Assembly (NCBI GenBank): GCA_030533235.1
Contig: JAUNJN010000027.1
Span: 1 to 32,828, forward strand
Source of the DNA: Eubacteriales bacterium
GTDB taxonomy: Bacteria; Bacillota; Clostridia; Lachnospirales; Lachnospiraceae
Length of the DNA stretch: 32,828 nucleotides
Direction: 5' to 3'
The number at the start of each line of letters is the position of its first letter. Within the stretch, counting starts at the first letter, position 1. Below are positions 3,176 to 32,769 of this stretch, piece by piece. A model generated the notes under the pieces. That model ran no database searches. It was not told where the DNA came from and was given only the letters and a program-made list of their open reading frames with translations. Position numbers and translations under genes: made by a program.

Positions 3176-3253
3176 AAATTACCCTCCCATATCCGACAAA
3201 TTTGCCGTTTCAACCGATGAATATGTATTGTTTTCATACAACAGAGTATATGA

Positions 3254-3282
3254 ATTCTAGCAATGCCGAATTCGAAAGTCAA
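3254..3282 (-). promoter_or_regulatory. Sigma-A type promoter of nfo
   Basis: On the minus strand TTGACT (3282-3277), a 17-nt spacer and TAGAAT (3259-3254), close to consensus. Two GAATTC hexamers lie within and next to it. The leader would be about 70 nt. Confidence 0.65.
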
Positions 3283-3324
3283 CCCCCAAAATAAAAATAA
3301 CATATAGCTTTTTATTTGCCTGTA

Positions 3325-3353
3325 TTGTCTAATTTATATTTATGCTTTATAAT
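3325..3353 (+). promoter_or_regulatory. Sigma-A type promoter of the methyltransferase-hslO operon
   Basis: TTGTCT (3325-3330), a 17-nt spacer and a perfect TATAAT (3348-3353). The transcript would begin near 3360, which rules out the upstream in-frame start at 3356 and supports the ATG at 3386. Confidence 0.75.
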
Positions 3354-3385
3354 CTATGGAGCAAACAATAAAAGGAGGTTTTGAC

Positions 3386-4198: not shown

Positions 4199-4207
4199 GA
4201 GGTTTTT

Positions 4208-5077: not shown

Positions 5078-5137
5078 CAAGCGAATCATGAAAGAATTTT
5101 CAGAAAGGAAAGCCGACAAGCTTAGATTTCTATAGAT

Positions 5138-5968
5138 ATGATTGATTTACATGTACATTCGAATGCATCCGACGGTTCTTTGACACCAAGCGAAGTCGCC
5201 GATGAAGCGCTTCGTATGAATGTATCTGCCATCGCACTCACCGATCACGATACAATTTCCGGTATACCGGAGATTATGGAATATACAAAGGATAAACCGC
5301 TTACCGTCATTCCCGGTATCGAGTTATCCTGCTACTACAAAAATCGCGAGATTCATATACTTGGATACTATATTGACTATCAAAACGAAGAACTTGCAAA
5401 CGAGCTTACAAAGCTAAAAGATGCACGAAACACAAGGAACATCCAAATGGTTGAAAAAATGCAGGCAGACGGACTACCTGTCACAATGGAAAAGCTTCTT
5501 CACGGCAATCCGAACAGTGTCATTACACGTGCCCATTTTGCAAGAGTTTTAGTCGAGGAAGGCGTATGTAAAAACAAAGACGTTGCCTTCAAAAAATACA
5601 TCGGAATCGGTTGTAAGTACTATCTCCCTAAAACCCAGGTAACTTGCGAGCATGCCATGCGAATACTGACAACCTACTGTAAGACCGCATACCTTGCACA
5701 TCCACTGCTCTATCATCTCGGCTATAATCAGATCGAAGAGCTGCTCACATATTTAAAATCGCTTGGATTAAAAGGTATCGAAGCATACCACTCTTCAAAC
5801 AACATGTACGAAAGTGACAAGCTTCGCTCGATTGCAAAAAAAATGAACCTTTCAATTTCCGGCGGATCTGATTTCCACGGTGTTGTGAAACCAAACATCA
5901 AAATCGGCATAGGACGCGGAACCATGTATGTGCCTGACACCCTGTTAACCACTTTACTCCATACGTAA
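5138..5968 (+). CDS. PHP-domain phosphoesterase (TrpH/RNase AM-like)
   Basis: 276-aa member of the polymerase-and-histidinol-phosphatase family, metal-dependent phosphoesterases acting on nucleoside bisphosphates or on RNA 5' ends (E. coli YciV/RNase AM and relatives). The metal-binding motifs are all present: HVHSNASDGS at the N-terminus, LTDHDT, GIELSC, TRAHFA, AHPLLYH and GGSDFHG. The ATG at 5138 is forced, because the PHP fold starts at MIDLHVHS and an in-frame stop lies five codons upstream, yet no Shine-Dalgarno site is close by; the nearest purine run (AAAGGAAAG) ends about 27 bases upstream. Translation may be weak or depend on the hslO transcript. Confidence 0.88.
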   Translation: MIDLHVHSNASDGSLTPSEVADEALRMNVSAIALTDHDTISGIPEIMEYTKDKPLTVIPGIELSCYYKNREIHILGYYIDYQNEELANELTKLKDARNTRNIQMVEKMQADGLPVTMEKLLHGNPNSVITRAHFARVLVEEGVCKNKDVAFKKYIGIGCKYYLPKTQVTCEHAMRILTTYCKTAYLAHPLLYHLGYNQIEELLTYLKSLGLKGIEAYHSSNNMYESDKLRSIAKKMNLSISGGSDFHGVVKPNIKIGIGRGTMYVPDTLLTTLLHT

Positions 5969-5973
5969 ACAAA

Positions 5974-5996
5974 GGACAAAGCAATCAGCTTTGTCC
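5974..5996 (-). terminator. Hairpin terminator at the converging ends of the PHP and MetH-activation-like genes
   Basis: GGACAAAGC (5974-5982) and GCTTTGTCC (5988-5996) form a perfect 9-bp stem with a five-base loop. On the minus strand it is followed by TTTGTTTACG, a usable U-tract; on the plus strand by A-rich sequence. The minus-strand gene's stop codon lies in the loop, so this mainly serves that gene. Confidence 0.7.
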
Positions 5997-6662
5997 AAAA
6001 ATGCGCATATATCCATAATTCACCGGTTGCTCCGTCGACAAAGATTTCTCATCCTTATCCGAAATTCTGTAATTATCACACGATGTGTTACTGCAATTTA
6101 CACAAATTCCTTCACATACCTGATTCGGATTTTCAGTCAGAATTGCATAAAACACAACACTTTTTGACGGAGTTAAGACTCCATATTCGTTCGAACAGAT
6201 TTCTTCGGTATCTTTATTTCCCCGAATATCATTTAATATTATCGGTATCTCTGTCGGAGAAATCTCATCTCCGACAAATACATAACGCTTTACATAGCGC
6301 CTGTGAAACTTCGCATACGATTGATTAAATTCCTGGTACAAATCAAGTAAAATTTCATTTGCCAGACAATCAACCATATATGCTTCAGTAAGCTGTTCCT
6401 TTGACAAATAGCGTTCTTTTAATCCATCAATCCCGCTTCCTAATGTCATCGCAACAATCGCAACCTGCGCATTATCAATCATTGCAAGTCCCGTCATACG
6501 GTGATTTAGACGATACGTTGCCGACGGCTCTAAAACCGCTTGCACCTGTTCATATATTTTACCTAACAAACCATAATCCGTTGATTCAAAATGATATTTT
6601 TCTATGATGCGATAAATCCAATTTGTAGGATCCGAATTTTGAACGGACAATCTAATTTTCAT
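5985..6662 (-). CDS. Vitamin B12-dependent methionine synthase activation-domain-like protein
   Basis: About 225 aa, soluble. The central part (AMIDNAQVAIVAMTLGSGID, then YMVDCLANEILLDLYQEFNQ) and the later LTPSKSVVFYAILTENPNQ resemble stand-alone proteins of the MetH activation-domain family, which help reduce and remethylate cobalamin cofactors. The C-terminus has a cysteine cluster (CEGICVNCSNTSCDNYR, pattern C-x4-C-x2-C-x4-C) that could bind an iron-sulfur cluster or zinc, as seen in relatives that support corrinoid enzymes. The start is ATG at 6662, with GGGAG eight bases upstream; an ATG at 6683 lacks such a site. It follows nth by 54 bp and probably shares its transcript. No corrinoid protein is nearby, so the role is inference. 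Confidence 0.5.
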   Translation of the reverse strand: MKIRLSVQNSDPTNWIYRIIEKYHFESTDYGLLGKIYEQVQAVLEPSATYRLNHRMTGLAMIDNAQVAIVAMTLGSGIDGLKERYLSKEQLTEAYMVDCLANEILLDLYQEFNQSYAKFHRRYVKRYVFVGDEISPTEIPIILNDIRGNKDTEEICSNEYGVLTPSKSVVFYAILTENPNQVCEGICVNCSNTSCDNYRISDKDEKSLSTEQPVNYGYMRIFGQS

Positions 6663-6716
6663 AGCTTCTGCTCCCATTTGCAAACATATCTTGTTTATAC
6701 CCTATATATACTGATT

Positions 6717-7349
6717 TTATACATGCTTCCTGCAAATATCCTTCAGACAACAATGTTCGCAATCCGGTTGCTTTCTTGCAGAGCAAACTGCCCTTCCGTG
6801 CATAACAAAACGATGACACAAATCTGACCCTTCCTCCGGTGGAACTATCTTCCATAATGCCATCTCAACCTTCTTCGGTTCTTTTATATCTTTTACCAGA
6901 CCGATTCGATTGCACAACCGAATACAATGGGTATCTGTCACAATGGCAGGCTTATGAAAAATATCTCCCATAATTAAATTTGCGCTCTTACGTCCAACTC
7001 CCGGAAGCTCTAACAGTTTGTCAAAATCATCCGGAATCTGTCCGTCATATTTTTCATGAAGGATACACATACATGCATGAATATCCTTAGCCTTACTTTT
7101 TCCGAGACCACACGGCTTTACAATTACTTCGATTGCCTCCGGTGTTGCATTCGCCAGTGCTTCTACCGTCGGGTATTTCTTATACAAATCCTGTACAACA
7201 ACATTGACACGTTCATCCGTACATTGCGCAGCAAGCCGAACCTCAACCAGAAGCTTCCACGGCTCATCATATAAAAGTGTGCATTCCGCCTTTGGATACT
7301 CCTTTTTCAGGCGTTCTATTACTTCGATTACAAGTTCCTTCTTTGTCAT
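6717..7349 (-). CDS. nth: Endonuclease III (DNA glycosylase/AP lyase)
   Basis: Removes oxidised pyrimidines and nicks the abasic strand. 210 aa, the standard size. The helix-hairpin-helix ELPGVGRKSANLIMG contains the catalytic lysine K121, the catalytic aspartate is D139 (VTDTHC), and the early AAQCTDERVN motif is conserved. The C-terminal [4Fe-4S] loop has C189, C197, C200 and C206, giving C-x7-C-x2-C-x5-C; the usual first spacing is six, so this is a one-residue variant. The start overlaps the stop of the upstream HD gene by four bases (ATGA), implying translational coupling. Confidence 0.95.
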   Translation of the reverse strand: MTKKELVIEVIERLKKEYPKAECTLLYDEPWKLLVEVRLAAQCTDERVNVVVQDLYKKYPTVEALANATPEAIEVIVKPCGLGKSKAKDIHACMCILHEKYDGQIPDDFDKLLELPGVGRKSANLIMGDIFHKPAIVTDTHCIRLCNRIGLVKDIKEPKKVEMALWKIVPPEEGSDLCHRFVMHGRAVCSARKQPDCEHCCLKDICRKHV

Positions 7350-7786
7350 TTGTTTTCTCCCAACAAAAAGGCTTTGGCCTTGGCATATCGTGCATGAAGC
7401 TTTTCATTATAATTCTGATCATCACTCGGCAGTCTTGTTTTGTCACTGTTATGTTCCAAATCCGCAAGCTTTACCCTTGTTGCAATTGCATTTGTACTGA
7501 CAACACGAATATAATCCATGTATGGTTGGTCCTTTTCTCTCGTAAGACAGGCTACTGCAACTATGATTTCTTCCGGAAAGCCTTCTGCCCGTATATCATC
7601 TAACGTATAATTTGTGTCCTCAACAACATCGTGTAACAAGGCGGCGCAAATATCATATTCGCATTCCATCTGCTCTGCAACATGGTATGGATGAAACACA
7701 TATGGTACTCCCGCTTTATCAAATTGTCCATGATGTGCGTAATAACAAAACTTCATCGCCTTACATGTCAGCTCTGTGTAAATCAT
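7346..7786 (-). CDS. HD-domain protein resembling a small alarmone (ppGpp) hydrolase
   Basis: 146-aa single HD domain of the RelA/SpoT hydrolase type. Visible active-site residues are H19 (AHHGQ), H52-D53 (LLHDVVEDT), E56-D57 and D109 (KLADLEHNSD, the equivalent of KLADRLHN in Rel). No synthetase or TGS/ACT domain follows, so it is like Mesh1/SAH proteins that hydrolyse (p)ppGpp or related nucleotides; other phosphohydrolase substrates are possible. The ATG at 7786 has GGGAG seven bases upstream. It is the first gene of an apparent operon HD-nth-MetH-activation-like, with a promoter at 7824-7852. Coupling a nucleotide hydrolase to a DNA repair enzyme is unexplained. Confidence 0.85.
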   Translation of the reverse strand: MIYTELTCKAMKFCYYAHHGQFDKAGVPYVFHPYHVAEQMECEYDICAALLHDVVEDTNYTLDDIRAEGFPEEIIVAVACLTREKDQPYMDYIRVVSTNAIATRVKLADLEHNSDKTRLPSDDQNYNEKLHARYAKAKAFLLGENK

Positions 7787-7823
7787 GATTTTCTCCCTCA
7801 TTTTGTTTACAAATAATAAAATC

Positions 7824-7852
7824 AATATAACATATGTATTCTTTTAAGTAAA
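7824..7852 (-). promoter_or_regulatory. Sigma-A type promoter of the HD-nth operon
   Basis: Minus strand TTTACT (7852-7847), 17-nt spacer, TATATT (7829-7824). It lies just downstream of the small-RNA terminator and 37 bases before the HD start codon. Confidence 0.5.
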
Positions 7853-7884
7853 TGATTGTTATTTTCATTTCGAATTAAAAAAGA

Positions 7885-7917
7885 CAAAGAAAAAATCCGC
7901 CTTGGGGAAAGGCGGAT
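7885..7917 (-). terminator. Rho-independent terminator of the candidate sRNA
   Basis: Nine perfect base pairs (7917-7909 with 7903-7895), five-base loop, then TTTTTTCTTTGTC on the minus strand. No annotated minus-strand gene ends here; the nearest upstream gene on this strand starts beyond 8940, with an oppositely oriented gene in between. Confidence 0.85.
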
Positions 7918-7996
7918 CTCTGCGTTAACTAAAACGCGAAGGAGAAATGTGTGTCATCTGACACATATATGAATCTTGGGGGGATTCCTTAAATCA

Positions 7997-8015
7997 TGTA
8001 AACAAAGCGTTTACC
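7997..8015. promoter_or_regulatory. cre-like palindrome (candidate CcpA site)
   Basis: TGTAAAC and GTTTACC flank five bases. This fits the flexible cre form reported for clostridia, TGTAAA-Y-N(x)-R-TTTACA, with one mismatch at the last base. It lies inside the 5' part of the candidate sRNA transcript (roadblock position) and about 160 bp before the araC-type gene. The same bases could alternatively act as an RNA hairpin. Confidence 0.4.
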
Positions 8016-8054
8016 TTTGTTCTGTAATTAATTTAACATATTTTATTCGACAAA

Positions 8055-8083
8055 ATCTTATATTTATATGTCTTTTTTTTCAA
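8055..8083 (-). promoter_or_regulatory. Possible promoter of the candidate sRNA
   Basis: Minus strand TTGAAA (8083-8078), 17-nt spacer, TAAGAT (8060-8055). An alternative -10, TATAAG at 8062-8057, matches the consensus better but with a 15-nt spacer. The region is AT-rich, so chance matches are likely. Confidence 0.35.
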
Positions 8084-8172
8084 ATATGTGTTATGCTATA
8101 CACAAAGTATCCAAAAAAATTTGTGCACTTCGCACAACATCCAATTTTGATTCATAAAAAGGAGGTCTTCAC

Positions 8173-8940
8173 ATGGATATCAAAAGAGAATTAAATCATA
8201 AACTTTATGCACCTCACGAGGATCGTATCCGTCATATAAAATATGAACAGGAATCTGCTTTTTACAAGGCAATCGCATCCGGAAATCTCAAACGCGTTGA
8301 AGAAGGACTAAAAAATTGGGAGAACACCAACGGATTTACCACATCCGAAAACAAATGCGGCATATTATCCAAGGATCCCCTTCAAAACCGAAAGTATCAC
8401 TTTGTTATTCTGACAGCTCTTATCACAAGATTTTGCATCGATTCCGGTCTCAATCAGGAAATTGCATACAATATGAGTGATATTTATATCCTACAGACCG
8501 ACTCATGTACATCCATCCGACAAATTGAAAAGCTTACCCGCAGCATGGTAATAGGTTTTGCAGAAAAAATGCGCGAAGACAAAAAGAAGCATATCTACTC
8601 CAAGCAGATTATCAAATGCATTGATTATATCTATGATAATTTAAATCAAAGTCTTCATGTGGATGAAATTGCCGCTGTTTTGAACGTTACACCATCTTAT
8701 CTGTCCAGACTGTTCTCAAAAGAAGTCGGAGTTTCGCTTTCCTCATACATCAAAAATCTGCGATTGGAAACTGCCGCTCAGATGCTGATTTATTCCAATT
8801 ATGAAATCTCCGAAATTTCTGCATACCTGCTTTTTTCATCGCAAAGTCATTTTACAACCGCTTTTCAAAAAAAATACGGACAAACGCCAAAGCGGTACCG
8901 AAACGAAAACGCAAGTTCAAAGATGCCTACAGGAAACTAA
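8173..8940 (+). CDS. AraC-family transcriptional regulator
   Basis: 255 aa. The C-terminal 100 residues form the two helix-turn-helix AraC DNA-binding domain: IKCIDYIYDNLNQSLHVDEI, then AAVLNVTPSYLSRLFSKEVG, and the second HTH ending in HFTTAFQKKYGQTPKRYR. The N-terminal part lacks the usual cupin; it has a helical domain with KYHFVILTALITRFCIDSGL followed by NQEIAYNMSDIYI, found in clostridial AraC proteins related to the YSIRK-type regulator. The inducing signal is unknown. The start has AAAAAGGAGG eight bases upstream. The gene ends in a terminator hairpin and is flanked by minus-strand genes, so it is monocistronic; the upstream sRNA/cre region may be regulatory for it. Confidence 0.9.
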   Translation: MDIKRELNHKLYAPHEDRIRHIKYEQESAFYKAIASGNLKRVEEGLKNWENTNGFTTSENKCGILSKDPLQNRKYHFVILTALITRFCIDSGLNQEIAYNMSDIYILQTDSCTSIRQIEKLTRSMVIGFAEKMREDKKKHIYSKQIIKCIDYIYDNLNQSLHVDEIAAVLNVTPSYLSRLFSKEVGVSLSSYIKNLRLETAAQMLIYSNYEISEISAYLLFSSQSHFTTAFQKKYGQTPKRYRNENASSKMPTGN

Positions 8941-8953
8941 TTTCTGTAGGCAT
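8923..8953 (+). terminator. Hairpin terminator after the AraC regulator
   Basis: ATGCCTACAG (8923-8932) pairs with CTGTAGGCAT (8944-8953); the TAA stop lies in the loop. A modest T-rich tail (TCCATTTTC) follows on the plus strand. It could also stop transcripts of the converging dehydrogenase gene. Confidence 0.65.
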
Positions 8954-8975
8954 TCCATTTTCGCTCTCAAACATC

Positions 8976-12571: not shown

Positions 12572-13855
12572 TTATTTTGTACGGTAAATGATATCACTGC
12601 GGCTTGGTCCGTTGGAAATCATCGTAATCGGGAAACCAATCTGTTCTTCAATAAACTCAATATAGTTTCTGCAATTTTCAGGAAACTCGTCGTAATTCTT
12701 GATTCCGCGAATATCCTGCTTCCAGCCCGGAAGAACCTTGTAAACCGGCTTTGCCTTTTTTAGCTTTGCAGTTGTAGGGAAATCCGTTGTGATTTTACCG
12801 TCAATTTCATAACCTACACAAACCGGTATTTCATCCAGATATCCGAGTACATCCAATACGGTAAACGCAACATCGGTCGTTCCCTGAATACGGCAGCCGT
12901 ATTTGGATGCCACACAATCAAACCATCCCATACGTCTCGGTCTTCCGGTTGTTGCACCATACTCACCACCATCACCGCCACGGCGACGAAGCTCATCTGC
13001 TTCCTCTCCAAATATCTCACTTACAAATTCTCCGGCACCGACAGCTGATGAATAAGCCTTACAAACCGTAACAATCTGTTTAATTTCATATGGCGGAATC
13101 CCTGCACCGATAGCACCATATGCAGCAAGTGTCGAAGATGATGTAACCATCGGATAGATACCGTGATCCGGATCCTTCATAGAACCTAGCTGTCCCTCTA
13201 ATAAGATTGTTTTACCTGCCTTGATTGCCTCATAAAGATATGCAGACACATCGCATACATACGGTTCTACCATCGTCTTGTATTCCATTAATGTGTTATA
13301 CACCTCATCTACAGTAAGCAATGGCTTCCGGTATAAATGCTCAAGCAAAACATTCTTAGATGCAATTACCCTTCCAATCTTATCCTTCAAAGACTCCTCA
13401 TCATCAAAAAGCTCACTAACCTGAAATCCGATTTTGGCATACTTATCCGAATAAAACGGAGCAATTCCTGATTTTGTTGATCCAAAGGATTTACCTGCCA
13501 GTCGCTCCTCTTCATATGCATCAAAAAGGATGTGATAAGGCATAACCATCTGTGCACGATCCGATACCAGAATCTTAGGTGTCGGAACTCCTTTATCTGT
13601 AATTGATTTGATTTCCTGAAACAACACCGGAATATTCAGTGCCACACCATTGCCGATAATACTTGTCGTATGATTATAAAATACGCCGGATGGCAATGTG
13701 TGCAATGCAAATTTTCCGTAATTATTTACAATCGTGTGCCCTGCGTTTGCACCGCCTTGAAAACGGACGATGACATCTGCTTTTTCTGCAAGCATATCGG
13801 TAATTTTACCTTTTCCTTCGTCACCCCAATTGGCTCCGACAACTGCCTGTACCAT
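12572..13855 (-). CDS. purA: Adenylosuccinate synthetase
   Basis: GTP-dependent ligase that joins IMP and aspartate, the first step from IMP to AMP. 427 aa from the ATG at 13855, which has GGAGG eight bases upstream; a TTG five codons earlier would overlap that site. The N-terminal GANWGDEGKGKITDML is the GTP/IMP-binding P-loop, followed by FQGGANAGHT; GATTGRPRRMGWFD and the GPSRSDII end are also conserved. purB, the next AMP step, is about 3 kb upstream on the same strand but is separated by unrelated genes. Confidence 0.98.
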   Translation of the reverse strand: MVQAVVGANWGDEGKGKITDMLAEKADVIVRFQGGANAGHTIVNNYGKFALHTLPSGVFYNHTTSIIGNGVALNIPVLFQEIKSITDKGVPTPKILVSDRAQMVMPYHILFDAYEEERLAGKSFGSTKSGIAPFYSDKYAKIGFQVSELFDDEESLKDKIGRVIASKNVLLEHLYRKPLLTVDEVYNTLMEYKTMVEPYVCDVSAYLYEAIKAGKTILLEGQLGSMKDPDHGIYPMVTSSSTLAAYGAIGAGIPPYEIKQIVTVCKAYSSAVGAGEFVSEIFGEEADELRRRGGDGGEYGATTGRPRRMGWFDCVASKYGCRIQGTTDVAFTVLDVLGYLDEIPVCVGYEIDGKITTDFPTTAKLKKAKPVYKVLPGWKQDIRGIKNYDEFPENCRNYIEFIEEQIGFPITMISNGPSRSDIIYRTK

Positions 13856-13904
13856 ATTATATACCTCCAATACTTTTCGATTTCCTATGAAACGAATTTA
13901 GTAT

Positions 13905-13933
13905 ATCTTACATTGCATCATAAATAAAATCAA
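13905..13933 (-). promoter_or_regulatory. Possible promoter of purA
   Basis: Minus strand TTGATT (13933-13928), 17-nt spacer, TAAGAT (13910-13905); a nearby TATACT (13905-13900) is an alternative -10. Confidence 0.4.
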
Positions 13934-13948
13934 TATTATTTATGTATG

Positions 13949-13967
13949 ATATAAGAATTTCTTATAT
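13949..13967. repeat. Near-perfect palindrome between the xylanase and purA genes
   Basis: ATATAAGAA and TTCTTATAT flank a single base. It starts two bases after the xylanase stop and lies upstream of the predicted purA -35. Without a loop or T-tract it resembles a dimeric repressor operator more than a terminator. Confidence 0.45.
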
Positions 13968-13968
13968 A

Positions 13969-15225
13969 CTATTTTAAGGTAATACGCTGTTCTTTCATAT
14001 CAGTATCCAATACAAAGCTTCCTTTTCTTGCATCCTCCTTAATTTCGTAGCTACCACGATAGCCGGTAATCTCTGCATAACCATCTTCATCCGTCACAAG
14101 CGTTTTTGATGTGTGCCATTTATTATGTACATAGTCTTTCAATGTATGGTATACAGGCTTTATGCTGCCATCCTCATGAATAATTCCGCTTGGTGCCTTA
14201 AGCCATGCACCGTCTGCAAAATCCCAGGCAGTGATTGCCTCCACGAGAGGTTCGTTAAACAACCTAACGTACATCTCTTCCCATTCCTTTGCCTGTCTTT
14301 GTTCTCCTTCCGGAGTAGACGGCCATTCGTCAACCACATAATCATTTAAATCAACGATATGTGCCGGCATAATTTCACCGGAAACAAGAGTATTTTCCGT
14401 AAAATGAAGCGGCAGTCCAAATACCGAAAACCGCTTCAGTACATCGTCTAACCAAGCCATTCCCTTATAACCCTGATGCTGATGCGTCTGAATGCCTATG
14501 GCATCAATCGATACACCTGCATCCAAGCAATCACTAATCAATTTTCTGTAATCATCCGACAAATTGAAATCATTAATCAAAAGAGTTGCCGACGGATTTG
14601 CTGCTCGTGCTGCCGCAAACAACTCTTTGATTAACGGAACCCGACCATATTCCTTACAGATTCTTGTAATCGCATTATCATAGCGATCATAAACAGGCAT
14701 AATCACTGCCTCATTCACCACATCCCACTTATCAATCTTTCCCTTAAAGGCAGTAACCTCTCTCTCAATACGAGCAAGCTGCTTGTTTAGAATTGTCTTG
14801 TTGTCATATTCCATAAGCCATGGTGCACATACTGTATGCCAGCAAAGCGGATGCCCTTTCAATGTCACATTATGCTCCAACATAAAATCTGCTGCATTCA
14901 TACGTGTTTCGTATTGCGGATTTCCCTCTGTTGGTTCATAATCACCCCAATAAAACGGCAATGTTGCATAATTAAATATATCAAGCCACTTTCTCATACG
15001 ATCGGCATAATATTCCTTGTCATTCGTACGCTTATAATCATAGAATGGAAGCATTTCATCCGAAATATCATTTGTAAGCGGAATCGAATCAAAAGCGCCG
15101 CATCCAAATAAAAACCTGTGTTTCTTCAGTTCAAAATGAACATGTTTATTTGCAATTGCATTCCCTGCCTGATCTACGAATTTTACACGTGCAGTCGTGC
15201 ATCGATGCTTTACTGTTTGCTCCAT
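13969..15225 (-). CDS. Glycoside hydrolase family 10 endo-beta-1,4-xylanase, apparently intracellular
   Basis: 418 aa without a signal peptide, so it likely acts on imported xylo-oligosaccharides. Residues 1-35 form a short Ig-like strand region, about 40-365 the GH10 barrel, and the last 45 another small beta region. The acid/base glutamate is E172 (WDVVNEAV) and the nucleophile E277 (LHFTENTLVSG). The loop after FNYAT reads LPFYWGDYEP in place of the usual ENxMKW, and the nucleophile strand reads FTENT in place of ITELD; both mark a divergent GH10 subgroup. CWHTVCAPWL is conserved. GGAGGAG precedes the ATG. No sugar transporter is adjacent; the nearest co-directional gene encodes DUF4867. 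Confidence 0.88.
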   Translation of the reverse strand: MEQTVKHRCTTARVKFVDQAGNAIANKHVHFELKKHRFLFGCGAFDSIPLTNDISDEMLPFYDYKRTNDKEYYADRMRKWLDIFNYATLPFYWGDYEPTEGNPQYETRMNAADFMLEHNVTLKGHPLCWHTVCAPWLMEYDNKTILNKQLARIEREVTAFKGKIDKWDVVNEAVIMPVYDRYDNAITRICKEYGRVPLIKELFAAARAANPSATLLINDFNLSDDYRKLISDCLDAGVSIDAIGIQTHQHQGYKGMAWLDDVLKRFSVFGLPLHFTENTLVSGEIMPAHIVDLNDYVVDEWPSTPEGEQRQAKEWEEMYVRLFNEPLVEAITAWDFADGAWLKAPSGIIHEDGSIKPVYHTLKDYVHNKWHTSKTLVTDEDGYAEITGYRGSYEIKEDARKGSFVLDTDMKEQRITLK

Positions 15226-15260
15226 AGTATCTCCTCCGTCTGATTCTTTTTAATTCAGCT

Positions 15261-15290
15261 AAAAAACGCGCAGACATATTTGTCTGCGCG
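15261..15290 (-). terminator. Rho-independent terminator of the DUF4867 gene
   Basis: Perfect 10-bp stem CGCGCAGACA/TGTCTGCGCG with a four-base loop, then TTTTTT on the minus strand. It separates the DUF4867 gene from the xylanase. Confidence 0.92.
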
Positions 15291-15301
15291 AATACGAAAA
15301 A

Positions 15302-15916
15302 CTAAATTGAAAGGTTCTCGCCCTTTAATCCAATGAAGCTTCCTTCCGGAAGACCGCCTTCGGCATGTCCGATCAGCCATTTATTAGTTGCGGCAAGAAG
15401 TGCATCCTCACCACCTGCATGCTTTTCTGCAAGCGGATAATTTGTTCCCTTCGGAAGTACGATTACAACCTTGAAACCATCATCTCCCGGATTGCATGGT
15501 GCATAATGAAGTGTTGTAGCAAACACCTCAACTCCAACACCTGCAGGTAAGAAAAATGCTTCCATCTTTGATGTATCGTATGTATTATCCTCTTCAACAT
15601 CTTCTTGTTTCCCAAGAATCAGTACGGCATCCTTACATGCAATATTAAGCTCTGAACTTCTATGATATTCTGCTGCATTAAGCTTCTTGTTATGTCCGTT
15701 ACAAAATCCTACCTGAACATCAAGCTCTCCGTATGCACGCACCTTAAACTCTTGTGCAATCGGAAGTGACTCAAGATAATCAATGGATGGCTCATAGATG
15801 ACATCCTCCGGAAGCGGTGACTTTTCCATTGCCTCAATCAACTGAGAAAAATCATAGTTCTCAAGCACACGTCCATACTTTCTGAATGCAGGGTCTGTTA
15901 CCTTTTTAATTTCCAT
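15302..15916 (-). CDS. DUF4867 family protein
   Basis: 204 aa, soluble, no signal peptide. It matches from memory the DUF4867 family, common in Lachnospiraceae and related to ureidoglycolate-lyase/cupin-like folds. Notable stretches are the histidine-containing YHRSSELNIACKDAVLILGK, then MEAFFLPAGVGVEVFATTLHYAPC and FKVVIVLPKGTNYPL, consistent with a cupin barrel. It may act on a sugar or keto acid; the neighbouring xylanase gives a weak hint at carbohydrate use. The ATG at 15916 has GGAGG nine bases upstream; the longer frame to 15979 contains the promoter. It is a single-gene transcript with its own promoter and terminator. Confidence 0.8.
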   Translation of the reverse strand: MEIKKVTDPAFRKYGRVLENYDFSQLIEAMEKSPLPEDVIYEPSIDYLESLPIAQEFKVRAYGELDVQVGFCNGHNKKLNAAEYHRSSELNIACKDAVLILGKQEDVEEDNTYDTSKMEAFFLPAGVGVEVFATTLHYAPCNPGDDGFKVVIVLPKGTNYPLAEKHAGGEDALLAATNKWLIGHAEGGLPEGSFIGLKGENLSI

Positions 15917-22721: not shown

Positions 22722-23708
22722 CTAATCATTGTAATACGTATCCTCATCCTGTTCCTCATCGACACTCGCTGCAAGCTCATTAAACGCCTCGGTAATTCCT
22801 TCCAAAACTGCAGAATTTTCAAGGTAAATACCAACTGCCTGTTTTTGATTGGATATTGTAAGATTTTGATAATCCCCCGCAAATTCACCATCAATCGTCC
22901 ACGGAATTATCTCCTCACTAATTACCGATATCTTTGACGCTTTACAATCAAAAAACATCTCATTTCCTTCAATATTGTTCGTTACAATTCCCGAAAGAAT
23001 CTGCTGAAATTCTGCAACATTTTGGGGACTCTTAATAAACAGGCAATCAAATTTACCATCATCTAGCGCAACATGTGCGGAACCTCTCACACGAAAACCG
23101 GCTACCGAATAAGAATTTGTTATCATACCAAAAATGTAATCGCCGGTAATTACCGCGCCGTCAAAATCAGCTTTCAATCGATAGGATTTAAAATTACCCA
23201 GATTTCGAACCGCCTCGAGTAAATACGCAGAATGTCCGATTACCTTTTTCAAAGACTGCTTTGTGTTATAGGAAATATCCGTAAATATACCAAATGCCGC
23301 AATGTACATAAAATATTTCTCGTTTAGTTTACCTACGTCAATAAAACATTCTTCACCTTTTACAATCTGTATTGCCGCCTCCAAAGGTTTCCTCGAAATC
23401 CTAAGACTGCGCGCAAAATCATTCGTCGTCCCAACCGGAATATATCCGATCGGAACCTTTTTTGTTCCCATATTCATATAACCGGAAATCGTATTTTGCA
23501 ATGTACCGTCCCCTCCGGCACACACAACCAAGTCATACAAAGCGCCTTCCTCACTCATTTTACGTTCAGCATCGGTAGGTCCGGTTGTCGGATAAACAAC
23601 GACCTCATATCCAGCCTTCGAAAATGCAACGATAATTTCAAATAAATCATTTCGGACCGCTGTACGACCGGCTTTCGGATTAATTATGAACAGCAGCTTT
23701 TTTTTCAA
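22722..23708 (-). CDS. Diacylglycerol kinase-family lipid kinase, TTG start inside queC
   Basis: About 328 aa, DAGK catalytic fold (YegS/DgkB type) that phosphorylates diacylglycerol or a related lipid at the membrane. The N-terminal [12 protein letters not shown] and the nucleotide motif [17 protein letters not shown], then [13 protein letters not shown], are diagnostic; WTIDGEFAG is the C-terminal signature. The fold must begin just before KKLLF, where no ATG or GTG is available: TTG at 23708, with GGAGG six bases upstream, fits best. This places the start inside queC with a 29-base out-of-frame overlap. An ATG at 23765 would add a non-homologous tail translated from queC's zinc-site region and has no ribosome site. 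Confidence 0.88.
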
Positions 23709-24351
23709 GATATGCCTCCAATCCCTTCTTGCGAAGCTTGCAGGATGGGCAATTTCCGCATCCATCCCCTAATATGCCATTATAGCAGGTAAGCGTCTCG
23801 TTTCGAATCAAATCAAATCCCCCAAGCTTATCTGCCATCTCCCATGTTTGTTCTTTGTCAATCCACATTAGTGGCGTAATTATGTCAAATTCATAATCCA
23901 TTGCTAAATTAAGCGTCACATTTAGTGATTTAATAAATATATCGCGACAATCCGGATACCCTGAAAAATCACTCTGCGATACCCCTGTAATCAAATCCGT
24001 AATTCCGAGCTGTTTTGCGTAAACAGCCGCAAATGTAAGAAATATCATATTTCTTCCGTCTACAAAGGAATTTGGTGTGCCCTGCAAAGGCGCACTCTCA
24101 TCCACCTTTATATCCATACGTGTCAGAGAATTTGGTGCAATCTCATTTAATAGCCCCATATCCATAATCTTATGGGTAACTCCAAGCTTTTCACATATTT
24201 TCTTTGCACATTCAAGCTCTAATCTATGTCTTTGACCGTAATCAAAGGAAATTGCATATACAGTCTTATAGTTTTCTTTTGCCCATAAAAGACAAGTTGT
24301 ACTATCCTGTCCTCCACTAAAAACAACAACTGCAGCCTCTTTATTCTTCAT
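23680..24351 (-). CDS. queC: 7-Cyano-7-deazaguanine (preQ0) synthase
   Basis: ATP-dependent enzyme turning 7-carboxy-7-deazaguanine into preQ0, the last step before tRNA-directed queuosine synthesis. 223 aa. The PP-loop FSGGQDSTT is at residues 11-19 and the zinc site is C189, C198, C201 and C204 ([17 protein letters not shown]), matching the E. coli spacing. It is 78 bp after folE and overlaps the lipid kinase downstream. Confidence 0.97.
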
Positions 24352-24429
24352 TCAAAGCACTCCTTTCTTTATTATACAGCGTACTCGTATCAAAAATGTA
24401 TCAATCAACAGCCTTCAAATCATATTTTC

Positions 24430-25008
24430 TTATTTTAACATCGTAAGCAGGCGATTCTGCAACGATACTTCATCGCAAAATCTCCCGAGAAATGTCGTTG
24501 TAACCGTTTTGGCGTTTTCTTTTCGAATCCCTCTTGCCGTCATACAACTGTGGCAACCTTCTATCACAACCGCAACATTGTCCGTTTCCGTTACCTTCGA
24601 AATAATCGATGCGATATCGGTCCCGATTCGTTCCTGTAGCTGCAAACGTCTTGCAACCATATCTGCAATTCTTGCAATCTTACTAAGACCGATTACCTTT
24701 TTATCCGGCAAATATGCCACAGACACCTTCATATCATACATTAGCGCTAAATGATGTTCACAATAGCTGAAAACCTCAATGTCCTTTACAAGCACAATAT
24801 CCTCTGAATCCGCCTTAGGCTTTTCAAAGGTTTTATTGAACATAGCGGCAATTTCATCATTTGTGTAATTCATTCCCATAAATACTTCCTCATACATACG
24901 GGCAACACGATCCGGTGTATCCTTCAGGCCTTCACGCTCCGGATCATCCCCTAATGCTACGAGGATTCCTCTTATATGTTCCCTGATTGAATCTTTATCA
25001 ATTGCCAT
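24430..25008 (-). CDS. folE: GTP cyclohydrolase I
   Basis: Forms 7,8-dihydroneopterin triphosphate from GTP, the entry step for queuosine (and folate). 192 aa from the ATG at 25008, with GGGAG nine bases upstream; this start is four bases after the queE stop. Zinc ligands are C83 and H86 ([11 protein letters not shown]) and C155 ([10 protein letters not shown]). Its position between queE and queC shows it serves the que pathway here, even if a second folE exists elsewhere. Confidence 0.96.
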
Positions 25009-25012
25009 TTCT

Positions 25013-25681
25013 CTATACTCCCTTTCTATTTGGATCCCAAATATATTTGTGTAGCTGTAGCTGCATTTTTTCACGCATCATCTGATGCTCAATCATATAA
25101 TTGACAATTTCCGTAGGCTCAACCCGGGAAAATGCCGAACTGATATATACGGTTGCCCGGTCGTTTAAACAATATTTTTCGATGATTTCTCTCGCATAAT
25201 CCAAATCCTGTCTGTCAGACACAACAAATTTTACACTGTCTGACTGTTTTAAATACCGGTAATTCGAAACCTTCATCGCTTCATGCATCCCACTTCCCGG
25301 CAACTTATAATCCAGAGTAAAAACAATATTTCCCGGAATGTTGACAAATGGTGCGATGTCAATCGAACCATTCGTTTCGATTTCGATACGAAGAGACGGA
25401 TCCTTTCCCAACATCATTAACAACCGATCCATATTTGTTTGCATCAAAGGTTCTCCCCCCGTAAGTGTAACATTACAGACTCCGGAGTCCTTAATAAATG
25501 CATAGATTTCTTCCTCACTTAAAATTTCATACGGCACATTCTTTTCATTCGCCCATCTTGTATCGCAATAACTGCAATTTAAGTTACACCCCGCAAACCG
25601 GATAAAAGCTGCCAGTGCACCGGCTTGTCTTGCTTCACCGTTAATACTTACAAATTTCTCCACTACATGAAACTTTCCCAT
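25013..25681 (-). CDS. queE: 7-Carboxy-7-deazaguanine synthase (radical SAM)
   Basis: Radical SAM enzyme that contracts 6-carboxytetrahydropterin to 7-carboxy-7-deazaguanine. 222 aa. The cluster motif CNLNCSYC (C32, C36, C39) has the standard C-x3-C-x2-C form; [20 protein letters not shown] precedes it, and [11 protein letters not shown] is the SAM-binding GGEP motif. It starts eight bases after queD and ends four bases before folE. Confidence 0.96.
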
Positions 25682-25689
25682 ACAATCAC

Positions 25690-26106
25690 CTACTTATAAG
25701 ATGCGCAATTATTCGGAGTCTCATATACTGTCGTGACAATTACATGATATCCTTTTTTCTGCATCTTCTCGTAAAAATATTTTGCGAAGTTTTCTGCCGT
25801 CGGACGAAAATCGACTTCAATTATGCGAAACTGTTCTTCCTTCAAGGCATCCATCGTTTTTGGTCTTAAGCTCCCTTTCTCGATGATGAAACTATGATCC
25901 AAATCTTCGGTCATCTCGTTCAGGTCCTTTTTCAGCTTTGAGAAATCTACAATCATTCCCCGATTGGTTCCTGTTTCATTTAAGCTCTCTCTTCCGACCT
26001 CAACCTCAATTTTCCATCGGTGTCCGTGAATATTTGCACACTTTCCCTCATACCCATGTAAAAAATGGGCGCTGTCAAAGCATGCATTTGTTTTTAATGT
26101 ATACAT
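25690..26106 (-). CDS. queD: 6-Carboxy-5,6,7,8-tetrahydropterin synthase
   Basis: Converts dihydroneopterin triphosphate to 6-carboxytetrahydropterin. 138 aa, family length. Zinc ligands are H14 (FDSAHFL) and H27 and H29 (IHGHRW); C23 is the catalytic cysteine. The C-terminal YETPNNCASY contains the substrate-binding glutamate. It is the first gene of queD-queE-folE-queC, with AAAAGGAGAG before the ATG, and is preceded by an attenuator-type leader (26151-26245). Confidence 0.96.
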   Translation of the reverse strand: MYTLKTNACFDSAHFLHGYEGKCANIHGHRWKIEVEVGRESLNETGTNRGMIVDFSKLKKDLNEMTEDLDHSFIIEKGSLRPKTMDALKEEQFRIIEVDFRPTAENFAKYFYEKMQKKGYHVIVTTVYETPNNCASYK

Positions 26107-28824: not shown

Positions 28825-28852
28825 AAAAAAGAAGGACGATTATTCGCCCTTC
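28825..28852 (-). terminator. Rho-independent terminator of the large fusion gene
   Basis: Stem GAAGGGCGA/TCGTCCTTC (nine pairs, one G-U) with loop ATAA that holds the stop codon, then TTTTTT on the minus strand. Confidence 0.9.
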
Positions 28853-31800
28853 TCCTTACGTGCCTCTACTTTCTTGCTTACGGCACTGAAAATATATTTT
28901 GCGCCGATTTCAGCCGCTGTACCATGATTATATACATACGTTTCCGTAAATTTTGTAATCTTTTCCTTATAGCTTGCTGACTGACAAATCAGTTCTTCCG
29001 CCCGTTCCTTCACTGTTGCAATCTGATCAAGCGAAACCGCACAACCAAGCTCTTCACGAATTAAAATATTAAGCGGAACCGTATCGATTTCCTTATATTC
29101 CGGATTCATAACCTTCATCGGTGTATCGACAAACAATACCGGTTTTTTTGTTGCATATGCATATTCGTATGCAATACCCGACCAATCGGTAATCAACAAA
29201 TCCGCTTGGAACACAGAACTGTTTGATGAAAAATCAGTCTGTATTTCAATATTCTCATTGTCTGCAAATCTGGCCTTAAGCTGCTCCATTTTTTCCTTGC
29301 GGTGACGTACATGCTGCGGATGCGGACGTACAATCACATGATAATCGGACGATTTCAATGTATCCAGAATATCATCCAGACAGCTGTCAACAATATTATC
29401 TTCCTGCCAAGACGGTGCAATTAATATCGATTTCGTATCGGATGCTTCTTTCTGCTCCGCCTCATAGGAAGCAACCATATCATCAAACAGGCTGTATCCC
29501 CATTCCACCAGATGCTTCTTCTTTGACTGATATGCAATCTCGGTTTTCTCAATTTCTTCCTTTTGATGCGGACCGACACATAATACTGTGTCATAGTGAT
29601 CCATAGATCCTGTTCGCATCGTAAGATTCAAGCTGTCCATTCCATGCGGAACATAAATGTATTCCACATCATTGCTCACATAGCTTCGTTTAATGTGGAA
29701 GTTTTCAAGATCCGGCATTGTCATCAAAACAACATCCGCTTCCATCTTCATAAATAATGTAATCAGCTTCTTTTCTCCAATATAATATGGCTTAATCTTT
29801 GATTGTGTTTTTGCAAGCTCAAAAATGGCATCGTTCGGATCACTCGTAATGTAATGAATATTTAAGTTTGTATGACCGAGCAAATATTCTATTATTCCCT
29901 TATAGTATTTGTAAAACCCGGTATTTTCGGAATAAAAGACAACATGCTTATTTCCAATACTAAAGAATCGCTTGTAATCCTCTTTTTCACGCTTTGCATA
30001 CTTATTCAGTTCTTTATTTTTATCCCCGCCTACACTCTTTAATGCCGACAGTTCCCGCTTTGACATTTCAAGCTGACTGTAATCCACATATTTCTTCGGA
30101 TTAATAAAGAAATTCAAAATATACATCTGCGCAACAGACATAAGATTACTTGCAATCCAATACACAACGACACCAACAGATACAAACCATCCAAGAAACA
30201 GTGACAAAGCAACCGATAATATCATTGCCCCGTACTGCCCGAATTTTCCTTGTTCAGACTGGAGTACATTGCTCCTATTTTGCGTATAACACATTACCCA
30301 CGCAGACAACGCGGCAAGAATCGGTGAAATAATAGCCGGTCCTCCATAGATCTTCGGAATGATCCGAAGATCAATCCCAAAAAGTAATGTATCAATTCCA
30401 ATCCCGTTCATTGCACCCTTGATTGCATCGATTACAATCATAAGAAGTACAAGCTGAATGACCATAGGGATAACCGAGACAAGCGGATTATACTTTTCTT
30501 TCTTATATAGTTGCGCCTGTCTTTCGGATATTTCCTCCTTATCACCATAATACTTTGCGTTGATTCGGTTGATTTCCGGCTGCATTTTCACCATCTTAAT
30601 GGAATTAAATTGTACCCAGATTGACACCGGAAGCAAAATGAGCTTCGTAAGCAAGGTAAACAGAATAATTGCGAGTCCCATATTACCGACCTGATCGTAA
30701 ATCCATGCAATGATACGCTCAAACGGTATCGCGATCAGACTTCCGAGCCCCTTCTCTTTCTCAAGCTCATAGACAGTTCCCGTCTCACGCATGGTCAACA
30801 TATCCCTTGCATGACCGGTTTGTATATATTCATACATAACAGCCTTGTTATTTAACGCATATAACAGATATCTGCGTTCTCTTACATCGCCGTCCTTATA
30901 AGGAAAAACCTCATCCGATTTGCAATCATCCAAAAGCTTTACATAACCGTCCTGTAAATCAGCATATGAAATCGGGGCATCCGAATACTGAAGCGGATGA
31001 TGCTCATCTACACCCTTGATAAACAGAATCGGATTCTGACGATCAACGCCTTGTGCCTTTCCACCCTCGTATCCGTGATCCGACATAATGAGAATCACTG
31101 AATTATCATACACGCCACTTTCCTTTAGCATATCAAGGTATTTTCTTGTAATTGTCATACAAGCCTGCACGTTCGTCTCATAGGTTGCATCTTCTATCAT
31201 TTCTACCGCCTCGTTATAACGATACGGCGAATGCGCTCCCTGAATATGAATAAACTTAAATGCACGCTGTTGTTTTGTTGTAACGGATCCGGATTTCAAA
31301 AAATTATAAAAGTCTAAATCCACATCCGAAAATGCCTGAACATTTGTATCAAAGTGACGCACATTTTTAAAATCGTCATTATCATATTCGCAATATTCCT
31401 TTACACCATATGGAAGGTATTTAAAACCTGTCGTCCGAAGCAGAAGCTTTGCAAACTGCACTTCCTCAAAGGAAGAATCACCTGTATAGAAAATGTTCTC
31501 AAACCGTTCTGTATTTTCTGCTCTTGGAATTTCGGTCTCATATATACCAATGCTGTAATCCCGCGCTTCTAATTCATGGAATAGCGGTGAATTATTCAAG
31601 GCATTTACGTAATACTCCTCGTAAGGCTCTCCGTTTTCATACCATTGTCCTGTCATAATATACGGAATTGACTGTGATGTATACGGATATGTACTCATCG
31701 TATTTGTATAGTATGTAAAATCATCAAACAATTCGATATAATCCGGACGGTCGTTCATCATTTTACTCATGACACGTGCATCAACACAATCGAGAACAAG

Positions 31801-32418
31801 AATAACAAAGTTTTTGTCCTCTGACATATTTAACATCTGCTCTTCATTTACAAACAGATTGTTTTCCTTTTTCTTATTAGCGCCTTTGACAAAATATACA
31901 ACCGTAAGTGAAATCGCAAGCATCGCAAATACAATCACACAAACGACACGGACAAATGTATAATAGCCGTCTGTTTTCGCAAGCTTATACACAAAGAATG
32001 CCACAAGTGCAAGTATAATCCATAAAATAACCGTCTTAATATTTTGAGAACGAAAAGCACTCCAATCAACAGGTGTACCATCGACCACCGGAATATCCTT
32101 TGCCATGAAGTTACCCTGAATATAAGTTGCCAAAAATGCTACAAAATATATAAACATAGCCAGATTATAGAGCTTGTCGTTAATTAAATATAATACAAAC
32201 AGTGCAAATACACTTGCAAACAGACAAACCAAAAATGTCTTAAATACGACCGGTACAATCATCGTCGCATCAAATACAAATTCTCCTAAGTTATTTGAAA
32301 ACAGCTCAAGCGGTGCATAAAAGCATAGCATAAAGCTCGCTACAACCGAAAGCATGATTCCGGCAAAAAATCGATTTCTTTTATGTTTCCCAAATTTATC
32401 CTTCAAACGTTCCTTCAT
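28840..32418 (-). CDS. Fusion: sulfatase/LTA-synthase-like + YidC/Oxa1-like + CDP-glycerol glycerophosphotransferase-like
   Basis: 1192 aa in one unbroken frame. Residues 16-176 hold five hydrophobic segments after a basic N-terminus. About 203-475 is an alkaline-phosphatase-superfamily (sulfatase/LtaS-type) domain: VILVLDCVDARV (D210), a Thr-rich nucleophile region TYPYTSQSIPYIMTG (T247 likely), H396 (QGAHSPYR) and SDHGYEGG (D447, H448). About 559-775 is a five-helix YidC/Oxa1 domain: LFTLLTKLILLPVSI with K592 where many homologues have the groove arginine, YNPLVSVIPMVIQLVLL, and VVYWIASNLMSVAQ. A lysine-rich linker leads to a TagF-like domain (822-1180) with YVPHGMD (H925), RPHP (1031-1034), TDFSSNSSV and ITDWSGIAYEYA. 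Topology places the sulfatase outside and the transferase in the cytoplasm. Domain assignments are by recognition; substrate and joint function are inferred. Confidence 0.88.
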   Translation of the reverse strand: MKERLKDKFGKHKRNRFFAGIMLSVVASFMLCFYAPLELFSNNLGEFVFDATMIVPVVFKTFLVCLFASVFALFVLYLINDKLYNLAMFIYFVAFLATYIQGNFMAKDIPVVDGTPVDWSAFRSQNIKTVILWIILALVAFFVYKLAKTDGYYTFVRVVCVIVFAMLAISLTVVYFVKGANKKKENNLFVNEEQMLNMSEDKNFVILVLDCVDARVMSKMMNDRPDYIELFDDFTYYTNTMSTYPYTSQSIPYIMTGQWYENGEPYEEYYVNALNNSPLFHELEARDYSIGIYETEIPRAENTERFENIFYTGDSSFEEVQFAKLLLRTTGFKYLPYGVKEYCEYDNDDFKNVRHFDTNVQAFSDVDLDFYNFLKSGSVTTKQQRAFKFIHIQGAHSPYRYNEAVEMIEDATYETNVQACMTITRKYLDMLKESGVYDNSVILIMSDHGYEGGKAQGVDRQNPILFIKGVDEHHPLQYSDAPISYADLQDGYVKLLDDCKSDEVFPYKDGDVRERRYLLYALNNKAVMYEYIQTGHARDMLTMRETGTVYELEKEKGLGSLIAIPFERIIAWIYDQVGNMGLAIILFTLLTKLILLPVSIWVQFNSIKMVKMQPEINRINAKYYGDKEEISERQAQLYKKEKYNPLVSVIPMVIQLVLLMIVIDAIKGAMNGIGIDTLLFGIDLRIIPKIYGGPAIISPILAALSAWVMCYTQNRSNVLQSEQGKFGQYGAMILSVALSLFLGWFVSVGVVVYWIASNLMSVAQMYILNFFINPKKYVDYSQLEMSKRELSALKSVGGDKNKELNKYAKREKEDYKRFFSIGNKHVVFYSENTGFYKYYKGIIEYLLGHTNLNIHYITSDPNDAIFELAKTQSKIKPYYIGEKKLITLFMKMEADVVLMTMPDLENFHIKRSYVSNDVEYIYVPHGMDSLNLTMRTGSMDHYDTVLCVGPHQKEEIEKTEIAYQSKKKHLVEWGYSLFDDMVASYEAEQKEASDTKSILIAPSWQEDNIVDSCLDDILDTLKSSDYHVIVRPHPQHVRHRKEKMEQLKARFADNENIEIQTDFSSNSSVFQADLLITDWSGIAYEYAYATKKPVLFVDTPMKVMNPEYKEIDTVPLNILIREELGCAVSLDQIATVKERAEELICQSASYKEKITKFTETYVYNHGTAAEIGAKYIFSAVSKKVEARKEKGE

Positions 32419-32425: not shown

Positions 32426-32695
32426 CTACCATATCCTTATATCATCTGACTCCGTTTCTTTTTTGGAGTTTTCTGAAAGACCAAGCTTTTTCGCAAGTAT
32501 TTTTTTTATGCGTCGTCCGTACACACCAACAATCGCCCCCATAGATATCACAATTCCCGAAAGTATCTGAATCAAATATGTAATAACCGACGGATCAATA
32601 TATGCATATCCGTTTAATCCAAACCACAGCATAAATCCTCCAAACAAAAACATGGAAGATAACGCTGTAAATAATATTTTCCGTGCCTTCTTCAT
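32426..32695 (-). CDS. Small two-span membrane protein, partner of the fusion protein
   Basis: About 89 aa, of unknown function. Two hydrophobic segments (about 7-30 and 36-60) are joined by the short external turn GYAYIDPSV, followed by a very basic RRIKKILAKK and an acidic C-terminus, implying both ends in the cytoplasm. Small proteins with a 'YIDPS' turn are, from memory, often found beside alkaline-phosphatase-superfamily genes in envelope-polysaccharide loci. It ends seven bases before the fusion gene, so the two are co-transcribed. The ATG at 32695 has GGAG ten bases upstream; a GTG at 32704 with AAGGAG seven bases upstream is a real alternative. Confidence 0.75.
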   Translation of the reverse strand: MKKARKILFTALSSMFLFGGFMLWFGLNGYAYIDPSVITYLIQILSGIVISMGAIVGVYGRRIKKILAKKLGLSENSKKETESDDIRIW

Positions 32696-32769
32696 AACGT
32701 ACACTCTCCATCTCCTTTTTTATGCCGAAGCACATACTGTAGTAGTTTACTATATATTCATCAAAATTT

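Follow-up and report, generated by a model that had tools for sequence, protein, structure and literature searches.

This study concerns gene P0001 of a Eubacteriales bacterium of the family Lachnospiraceae (assembly GCA_030533235.1), located on contig JAUNJN010000027.1, positions 1 to 32,828; this whole stretch of 32,828 nucleotides is referred to below as the window. P0001 joins a sulfatase-like, a YidC-like and a TagF-like module (S, Y and T) in one polypeptide, and a small protein with a YIDP motif (the YIDP protein) is encoded next to it. The features are:

28840 to 32418, minus strand: S-Y-T fusion gene (P0001), 1192 aa, ATG start, one unbroken frame with no internal stop
30784 to 32418, minus strand: S module, residues 1-545, with membrane spans at the N-terminus plus an LtaS-like domain of the alkaline phosphatase superfamily, predicted to lie outside
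30034 to 30750, minus strand: Y module, residues 557-795, a YidC/Oxa1-type five-span domain
28843 to 30003, minus strand: T module, residues 806-1192, a TagF-like transferase predicted to be cytoplasmic
32426 to 32704, minus strand: YIDP gene, 92 aa counted from GTG (an ATG is the fourth codon), its stop 7 nt before the ATG of the fusion

An earlier interpretation of the window, made from its letters alone (the sequence-only reading), had described the fusion and missed the YIDP gene 7 nt upstream. Its claim that three real domains share one 1192-aa frame was borne out, as all three scored over their Pfam cut-offs: Sulfatase at residues 230-454 (28.9 bits, cut-off 25, a narrow margin of 3.9 bits), 60KD_IMP/YidC at 580-769 (107.9 bits, cut-off 35, covering profile positions 1-162 of 163) and Glyphos_transf at 821-1099 (51.8 bits, cut-off 22.1). 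The NCBIfam profile yidC_oxa1_cterm scored 98.1 (cut-off 84.3). The topology proposed there, with S outside, Y returning the chain inside and T in the cytoplasm, agrees with the span prediction. The N-terminus is basic (8 K/R among residues 1-16); the S part has five strong N-terminal spans plus a weaker one at 43-59, and the Y part an amphipathic stretch (557-573) followed by five spans, the fifth weak. Other weak hydrophobic stretches were found at 204-220, 672-688 and 885-901.

The active-site and core motifs that the sequence-only reading had recognised are nearly invariant among homologues. S residues D210, H391, H396, D447 and H448 were present in 38 of 38 rows, and the putative nucleophile T247 was T in 35 and S in three. 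We take D210, T247, D447 and H448 to supply the metal site and nucleophile, and S thus has the metal-site Asp/His residues and the threonine expected of an LtaS-like phosphotransferase; its closest PDB entry by profile was LtaS (2w5q, spanning about 90 residues). Y was closest to E. coli YidC (5mg3, 5.4e-21) and aligned with it across the hairpin that follows the first span. K592 of Y (K in 53 and R in one of 54 rows) aligns with the arginine of the E. coli YidC VRGIMYP stretch, presumably a groove residue. Positive groove charge was considered as a marker of insertase function and rejected, as it does not discriminate. T residues H925, R1031-Q1035 (RPHPQ) and D1078-S1080 (DWS) were kept in 54 of 54 rows, and the H, RPHPQ, D and S also when the divergent T' proteins described below were included (24 rows). 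Besides its Glyphos_transf domain T therefore has the conserved His pair of TagF-type enzymes, H925 and H1033 presumably matching the TagF histidines, and its closest PDB entries were Cps3D (8qoy) and TarL (8va1), spanning about 145 residues.

Relatives were collected by a pattern-based scan of genome contigs, which found 137, and the best 80 were kept; with L136, L137 and the window they make up 83 Y-T loci, gathered by similarity to the window's protein and including near-copies (L032/L033, L061/L068 and L090/L092). Y and T formed one chain in all 80 kept loci, some clipped by contig ends. In an evenly drawn phylum sample, 2 of 398 genomes had a Y-T protein (a match across both domains); in an evenly drawn family sample 21 of 397 did, spread over 21 of 334 genera and counting the genome of the window. 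Among the 23 Y-T frames of these 21 genomes the window's alone exceeded 800 aa, those of G708 and G743 being clipped by contig ends. Some Y-T loci come from metagenome-assembled genomes (MAGs) labelled Saccharibacteria, four of which, when tested, measured 0.7-0.9 Mb. The 83 loci divide into three S-Y-T fusions with YIDP, 11 YIDP-S fusions, 45 with YIDP and a separate S, 18 with YIDP only, two with S only and four with neither. The statement that the three families are normally encoded separately is thus correct in general but does not hold for the lineages studied, in which the common unit is a Y-T fusion with S nearby; the S-Y-T join itself, recovered in three genomes (3 of the 83 loci), is a rare addition to that unit.

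The second S-Y-T copy belongs to another member of the genus (77% identity, C-terminus lost at the contig end); its two entries, L005 and L024, both sit on a contig of 12557 bases and are taken as one. The third belongs to MAG L025 (52% identity). That the fusion arose from an assembly error or a random joining of genes might be suspected, since the source genome is a draft (67 contigs, 87% complete). The same three-domain order in these two further genomes, together with Y-T chains in 80 of 80 kept loci and in the family sample, refutes this and leaves artefact a negligible chance. The S-Y-T fusions fell at two spots on the tree and a single origin was not rejected (p-AU 0.367), so neither one nor several origins are claimed. 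Two side observations concern these loci. The 821-aa Y-T protein of a congener (L136) has about 190 additional N-terminal residues (7978-8560) with no Pfam match. Y-T, S and YIDP genes also occur in two unannotated 'Bacteriophage sp.' records from human stool, L162 (MT838376) and L163 (MT836777), which are probably bacterial contigs; the motif in L163 reads YIDV.

The YIDP protein has a hydrophobic N-terminus ending in GYA, the sequence YIDPS, one span and a basic C-terminus (alignment of 26 rows, chosen by motif), and it gave no match in Pfam. It was found within 8 kb of 77 of the 83 Y-T loci, on the same strand in 75, and of the 66 YIDP genes that are separate and on the same strand, 55 lay at most 50 nt from Y-T. 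In Saccharibacteria-labelled loci just a few residues precede YIDPS. S was near or fused in 61 of the 83 loci, on the same strand in 57. A signal peptidase I gene was near 29 of the 83 (same strand in 17), and a small one was seen near Y-T and YIDP in L138 (3561-4046) and in L025, L026, L027, L046, L049, L051 and L054; this peptidase might process YIDP.

The same modules are wired together in a second way in the window's own genome. On contig C3, a protein T' with a YIDPG span in its N-terminus is encoded with Y', S' and a 604-aa protein joining a cytidylyltransferase to a pyridoxal phosphate (PLP) enzyme. In congeners and in L141, Y' and S' form one chain of 849-944 aa (15 intact frames at nine loci), and up to three Y'-S' genes stand in tandem beside one T'. 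Residues D210, T247, H396, D447 and H448 were kept in 16 of 16 S' rows and H391 was not; the S' of L141 scored under the Pfam cut-off. Two observations on single loci may be added. The source genome's own Y'-S' (L134, on C3) is split over two overlapping frames (13309-14262 and 14202-15878), where congener L139 has one 849-aa chain, owing to a disrupted gene or a sequence error. Three tandem Y'-S' fusions lie next to one T' in L164 and L165 (contigs of congeners G034 and G011), an arrangement that would suit one inside enzyme serving several outside ones.

The fusion types seen were therefore Y-T, S-Y-T (three loci), YIDP-S (11 loci) and YIDP-T' with Y'-S'. A tree was built of 88 YidC domains, among them 46 Y-T fusions (most odd-numbered Y-T loci were left out). 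These 46 formed one clade (100/99, and 100% of 200 bootstrap trees) and the Y' domains a separate, long-branched clade (100/100), whose placement is unsure as long branches meet there; rows L008 and L015, labelled 'canonical', grouped with Y', and their loci carry Y'-S'. Two separate clades of YidC domain are thus connected, through different joins, to the same pair of enzyme types. With the predicted orientations every join would be topologically consistent: YIDP, with its N-terminus out and its C-terminus in, leads into S or T'; S ends outside, where Y begins; Y ends inside and leads into T, and Y' ends inside and leads into S'.

The constraint on Y was compared with that on T and on stand-alone YidC in the 29 genomes for which both proteins were available, from 40 tested (picked from the 80 loci; 406 pairs). 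Fused Y had a median pairwise identity of 58.8% and T one of 58.6%, against 31.4% for stand-alone YidC; Y versus T is the clean comparison, and gene transfer may exaggerate the gap to stand-alone YidC. Columns conserved at 90% or more made up 26% of Y and 28% of T. Being as constrained as T, Y does not behave like a passive anchor. At least two 60KD_IMP matches were present in 38 of 40 Y-T genomes tested. A stand-alone yidC, which the sequence-only reading had proposed to look for, is kept in the window's genome on contig C14 beside rnpA-, yidD-, jag- and mnmE-like frames, and the ten stand-alone yidC windows examined likewise had rnpA-, yidD- or jag-like frames (all recognised by eye).

Supplier genes near Y-T loci were identified from their similarity to a single representative per type, and cytidylyltransferases were counted at the domain level. 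The representatives for phosphoenolpyruvate (PEP) mutase (409 bits, NCBIfam cut-off 320), phosphonopyruvate decarboxylase (446, cut-off 313) and the PhnW-AepZ aminotransferase of 2-aminoethylphosphonate (AEP) (463, cut-off 361) all exceeded their cut-offs, and the cytidylyltransferase tested was LicC-like (top PDB match LicC 1jyk, 5.8e-38). A cytidylyltransferase-type domain was near 59 of the 83 loci (54 at 60 bits or more), and an AEP-pathway-like gene near 24 (PEP mutase or decarboxylase in 19). Because the 83 loci were gathered by similarity to the window's protein, the count was repeated on the 22 Y-T loci of the even family sample, four of which overlap with the 83: YIDP was present at 18, S at 12, a cytidylyltransferase domain at 18 (16 at 60 bits or more) and an AEP-like gene at nine (eight by the strict count). 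The 23 control windows, 14 taken from other parts of carrier contigs and nine from around stand-alone yidC, gave YIDP 0, S 1, cytidylyltransferase 0 and AEP 0; a tenth stand-alone yidC window, L146, was excluded because it also reaches a Y-T locus.

A choline/ethanolamine-kinase domain was fused to the cytidylyltransferase in five of eight chosen supplier proteins. In the cytidylyltransferase-PLP fusion of the window's genome, the top PDB match of the PLP part was a threonine-phosphate-decarboxylase-like enzyme. The most distant Y-T locus (L137) had a LicC-like gene and a BCCT choline-family transporter nearby. Among carriers in culture, the Lachnospiraceae locus L089 (KE159527) has AEP genes and L042 (KE159630) the cytidylyltransferase-PLP gene. 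In L213, of the same phylum, genes for PEP mutase, the decarboxylase, a cytidylyltransferase and the AEP aminotransferase form a complete AEP set (3194-8967) whose last member is a stand-alone T of 389 aa, close to the T of Y-T proteins (382 bits) and without a Y, with no S or YIDP match within the 14 kb seen; judged by gene order, this locus would tie a T to CMP-AEP most directly. Closely related transferases can have different suppliers beside them. Supplier labels on a tree of 53 rows (39 labelled) required 14 changes by parsimony against a shuffled mean of 19.0, so that labels still cluster, and one Y-T pair that is 85.8% identical (L040/L038) has AEP enzymes beside one member and a PLP fusion beside the other. 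The common denominator of most suppliers is, by these similarities, an amino-alcohol phosphate or phosphonate. As a side observation, choline-kinase/cytidylyltransferase proteins in L197 (10191-12077) and L087 (4016-5770) bear a winged-helix domain at the N-terminus, a hint that the supply of head groups may regulate itself.

A linkage to donor cytidylyltransferases of the Lic or Pnt kind was thus found for the family, with the substrate assigned by similarity, and for the window only via the second locus on C3. The window's genome gave no PEP mutase match and has one cytidylyltransferase-PLP gene, which makes phosphoethanolamine or a close relative the likeliest cargo there. The same genome holds separate, much better matches to the TagF family (C59 and C54) and to the sulfatase family (C30 and C23), so a role of the fusion as the main teichoic acid enzyme is unlikely.

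We read the fusion as a head-group relay that runs from inside to outside and has four parts, T, Y, S and YIDP, here joined to the greatest extent seen; the reading is tentative, and we put its chances just short of even. In the cytoplasm, T would move a phospho- or phosphono-amino-alcohol (phosphoethanolamine, phosphocholine, AEP or similar) from a cytidine di- or monophosphate (CDP or CMP) donor to a lipid or lipid-linked acceptor. The charged head group would cross the bilayer through the lipid-facing hydrophilic groove of Y, which would act as a dedicated scramblase or flippase and not as a general insertase. Outside, S would take the group off the lipid through a threonine-phospho intermediate, as in LtaS/EptA-type enzymes, and hand it to a surface glycan or protein; YIDP would be a membrane subunit of the complex. 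The modules, their conserved residues, the gene linkage and the alternative fusions can be read directly from the sequences. The linkage of the modules is well supported, and S, Y, T and YIDP very probably work together. An amino-alcohol cargo is probable for the family; the donor chemistry is suggested by the neighbours and, in the window's species, by the cytidylyltransferase-PLP gene beside the T'-Y'-S' locus. It is possible, though we lean slightly to doubt, that YidC-family domains of two separate clades were co-opted by a surface-decoration pathway as dedicated lipid scramblases, covalently wired between a transferase that loads amino-alcohol phosphates or phosphonates onto a lipid and an outside enzyme that unloads them. 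A lipid-conduit role for YidC had been raised from the sequence alone; the partner genes, the alternative fusions and the equal constraint on Y and T make it the best-supported reading, in which the scrambling step itself is what Y would contribute. The relay uses all parts and would account for the attachment of Y to the inside enzyme in some proteins and to the outside enzyme in others.

Other readings give Y a different task. It could be a dedicated protein insertase for YIDP or for the spans of S, the fusion merely bringing assembly and catalysis together. The closeness of the YIDP gene to Y-T would suit this, as would its form in Saccharibacteria-labelled loci, short N-out proteins being the type inserted by YidC, and the alignment of Y with YidC over the hairpin with the groove lysine kept. 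Against it, YIDP is part of T' in the loci of the second wiring (type 2) and part of S in 11 loci of the first (type 1), so that a free client is not needed; the two or more 60KD_IMP matches in nearly all genomes tested mean that another insertase is usually present; and at four loci two or three tandem Y'-S' proteins each keep their own Y', more than one insertase needs. We consider an insertase role unlikely. That Y is a mere membrane anchor or scaffold holding T and S together would fit fusion and linkage alone, and the YIDP-T' proteins show that one span can anchor a T, as the T of L213 shows that a close relative occurs without any Y; the conservation of Y at the level of T, and the tying of YidC domains from two separate clades to the same enzyme types, make this reading very improbable. 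The sequence-only reading had favoured a glycerol-phosphate-like cargo. Spelled out, T would make a lipoteichoic acid (LTA)- or teichoic-like polymer or primer, which Y would move across and S would lengthen using phosphatidylglycerol. T does belong to the CDP-glycerol transferase family, with Cps3D and TarL as closest structures, S is closest to LtaS, and TagD-like cytidylyltransferase fusions lie near 8 of the 83 loci. Most suppliers are instead of LicC-like, choline-kinase, PLP or AEP types, pointing to phospho- and phosphono-amino-alcohols, and the better TagF and sulfatase matches lie elsewhere in the genome; the proposal was not supported as made, and we regard it as quite unlikely.

Several observations weigh against the relay as proposed. 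These same TagD-like fusions do not fit an amino-alcohol cargo, nor does one of the eight chosen suppliers (L188), which looks to be of the sugar-nucleotide type, and the match of T to CDP-glycerol- and ribitol-phosphate-type polymerases makes an alditol cargo possible. Supplier labels rest on similarity, and no cytidylyltransferase domain was found near 24 of the 83 loci, many flanks being short; the three S-Y-T loci (window, L024, L025) are among these 24. PEP mutase was not enriched genome-wide (7 of 44 Y-T genomes, in which G002 and G061, probably one genome, were counted apart, versus 9 of 36 relatives without Y-T). LicD, which could use the same donors, occurs in 24 of 43 Y-T genomes; in G086 and G093 it is no more than about 6 kb from Y-T, and in the S-Y-T congener G061 it adjoins the cytidylyltransferase-PLP gene, which is there on a different contig from T'. 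No LicD match was found in the other 19 of the 43, mostly drafts, and 12 of these 19 have a supplier near Y-T (L050 by a weak match only). The close T of L213 implies that T can do without Y. YIDP could be a client of an insertase instead of a subunit, the groove lysine tells nothing between scramblase and insertase, and S relatives in L103, L096 and L141 scored under the Pfam cut-off.

The relay resembles known systems in part. The LTA pathway consists of a glycolipid synthase, the flippase LtaA (an MFS protein) and LtaS. It shares with the proposed relay synthesis inside, a flip and an LtaS-type enzyme outside (the best profile match of S being LtaS 2w5q), and differs in that its genes are separate, whereas in the fusion a YidC domain is covalently wired in. 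MprF has other folds, no outside transferase and, unlike the fusion, an aminoacyl-tRNA as donor. It is a precedent for a head-group enzyme and a flippase in one protein: a cytoplasmic lysyl-phosphatidylglycerol synthase is fused to a flippase domain, through which the lipid reaches the outer leaflet (PMC5898192). The fusion has a transferase-type enzyme in the same chain, with Y as the putative flippase. With the Lic pathway (LicA kinase, LicC cytidylyltransferase and LicD transferase) the likeness lies in the choline-kinase and LicC-like genes near Y-T, which would supply the donor; the difference is that many Y-T genomes gave no LicD match (the 19 of 43 above) and that T, Y and S would do the job of LicD in two steps. 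The Pnt pathway of surface tailoring with AEP (PMC6697681) has its counterpart in the PEP mutase, decarboxylase, AEP aminotransferase and cytidylyltransferase genes near Y-T, while the main text of that paper names LicD-like enzymes and contains no YidC, sulfatase, TagF or glycerophosph* term. Y matches the YidC/Oxa1 domain over its full length, but it falls in a clade of its own (100/99), its C-terminus is taken by an enzyme, and its gene setting is unlike the stand-alone yidC windows examined. Lipid scrambling in liposomes has been seen in vitro for E. coli YidC and for other insertases (PMC10491306). By analogy, the best reading may be an MprF- and LTA-like logic with YidC as the conduit. 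No description of the combination of S, Y, T and YIDP, or of the YIDP motif, was found in the open-access papers searched, subscription papers being mostly outside the scope.

If the relay is correct, the scrambling seen in vitro for insertases would have a physiological use, which bears on whether scrambling by the Oxa1 family is a side effect or a function. The fusion would be a natural construct tying lipid scrambling by the YidC fold to a measurable product. It would also provide candidate transfer steps after CMP-AEP or CDP-choline/ethanolamine in gut Firmicutes and Saccharibacteria, and a place for the small orphan protein YIDP.

As for the surroundings of P0001 in the window, the gene stands among YIDP, a 3D-domain gene and others, and the housekeeping rnpA-yidD-yidC-jag setting was not encountered there. 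Unrelated to the fusion, the frames at 23680-26106 resemble a queuosine-precursor cluster, with QueC-, FolE/GCH-, QueE- and QueD-like members recognised by eye only.

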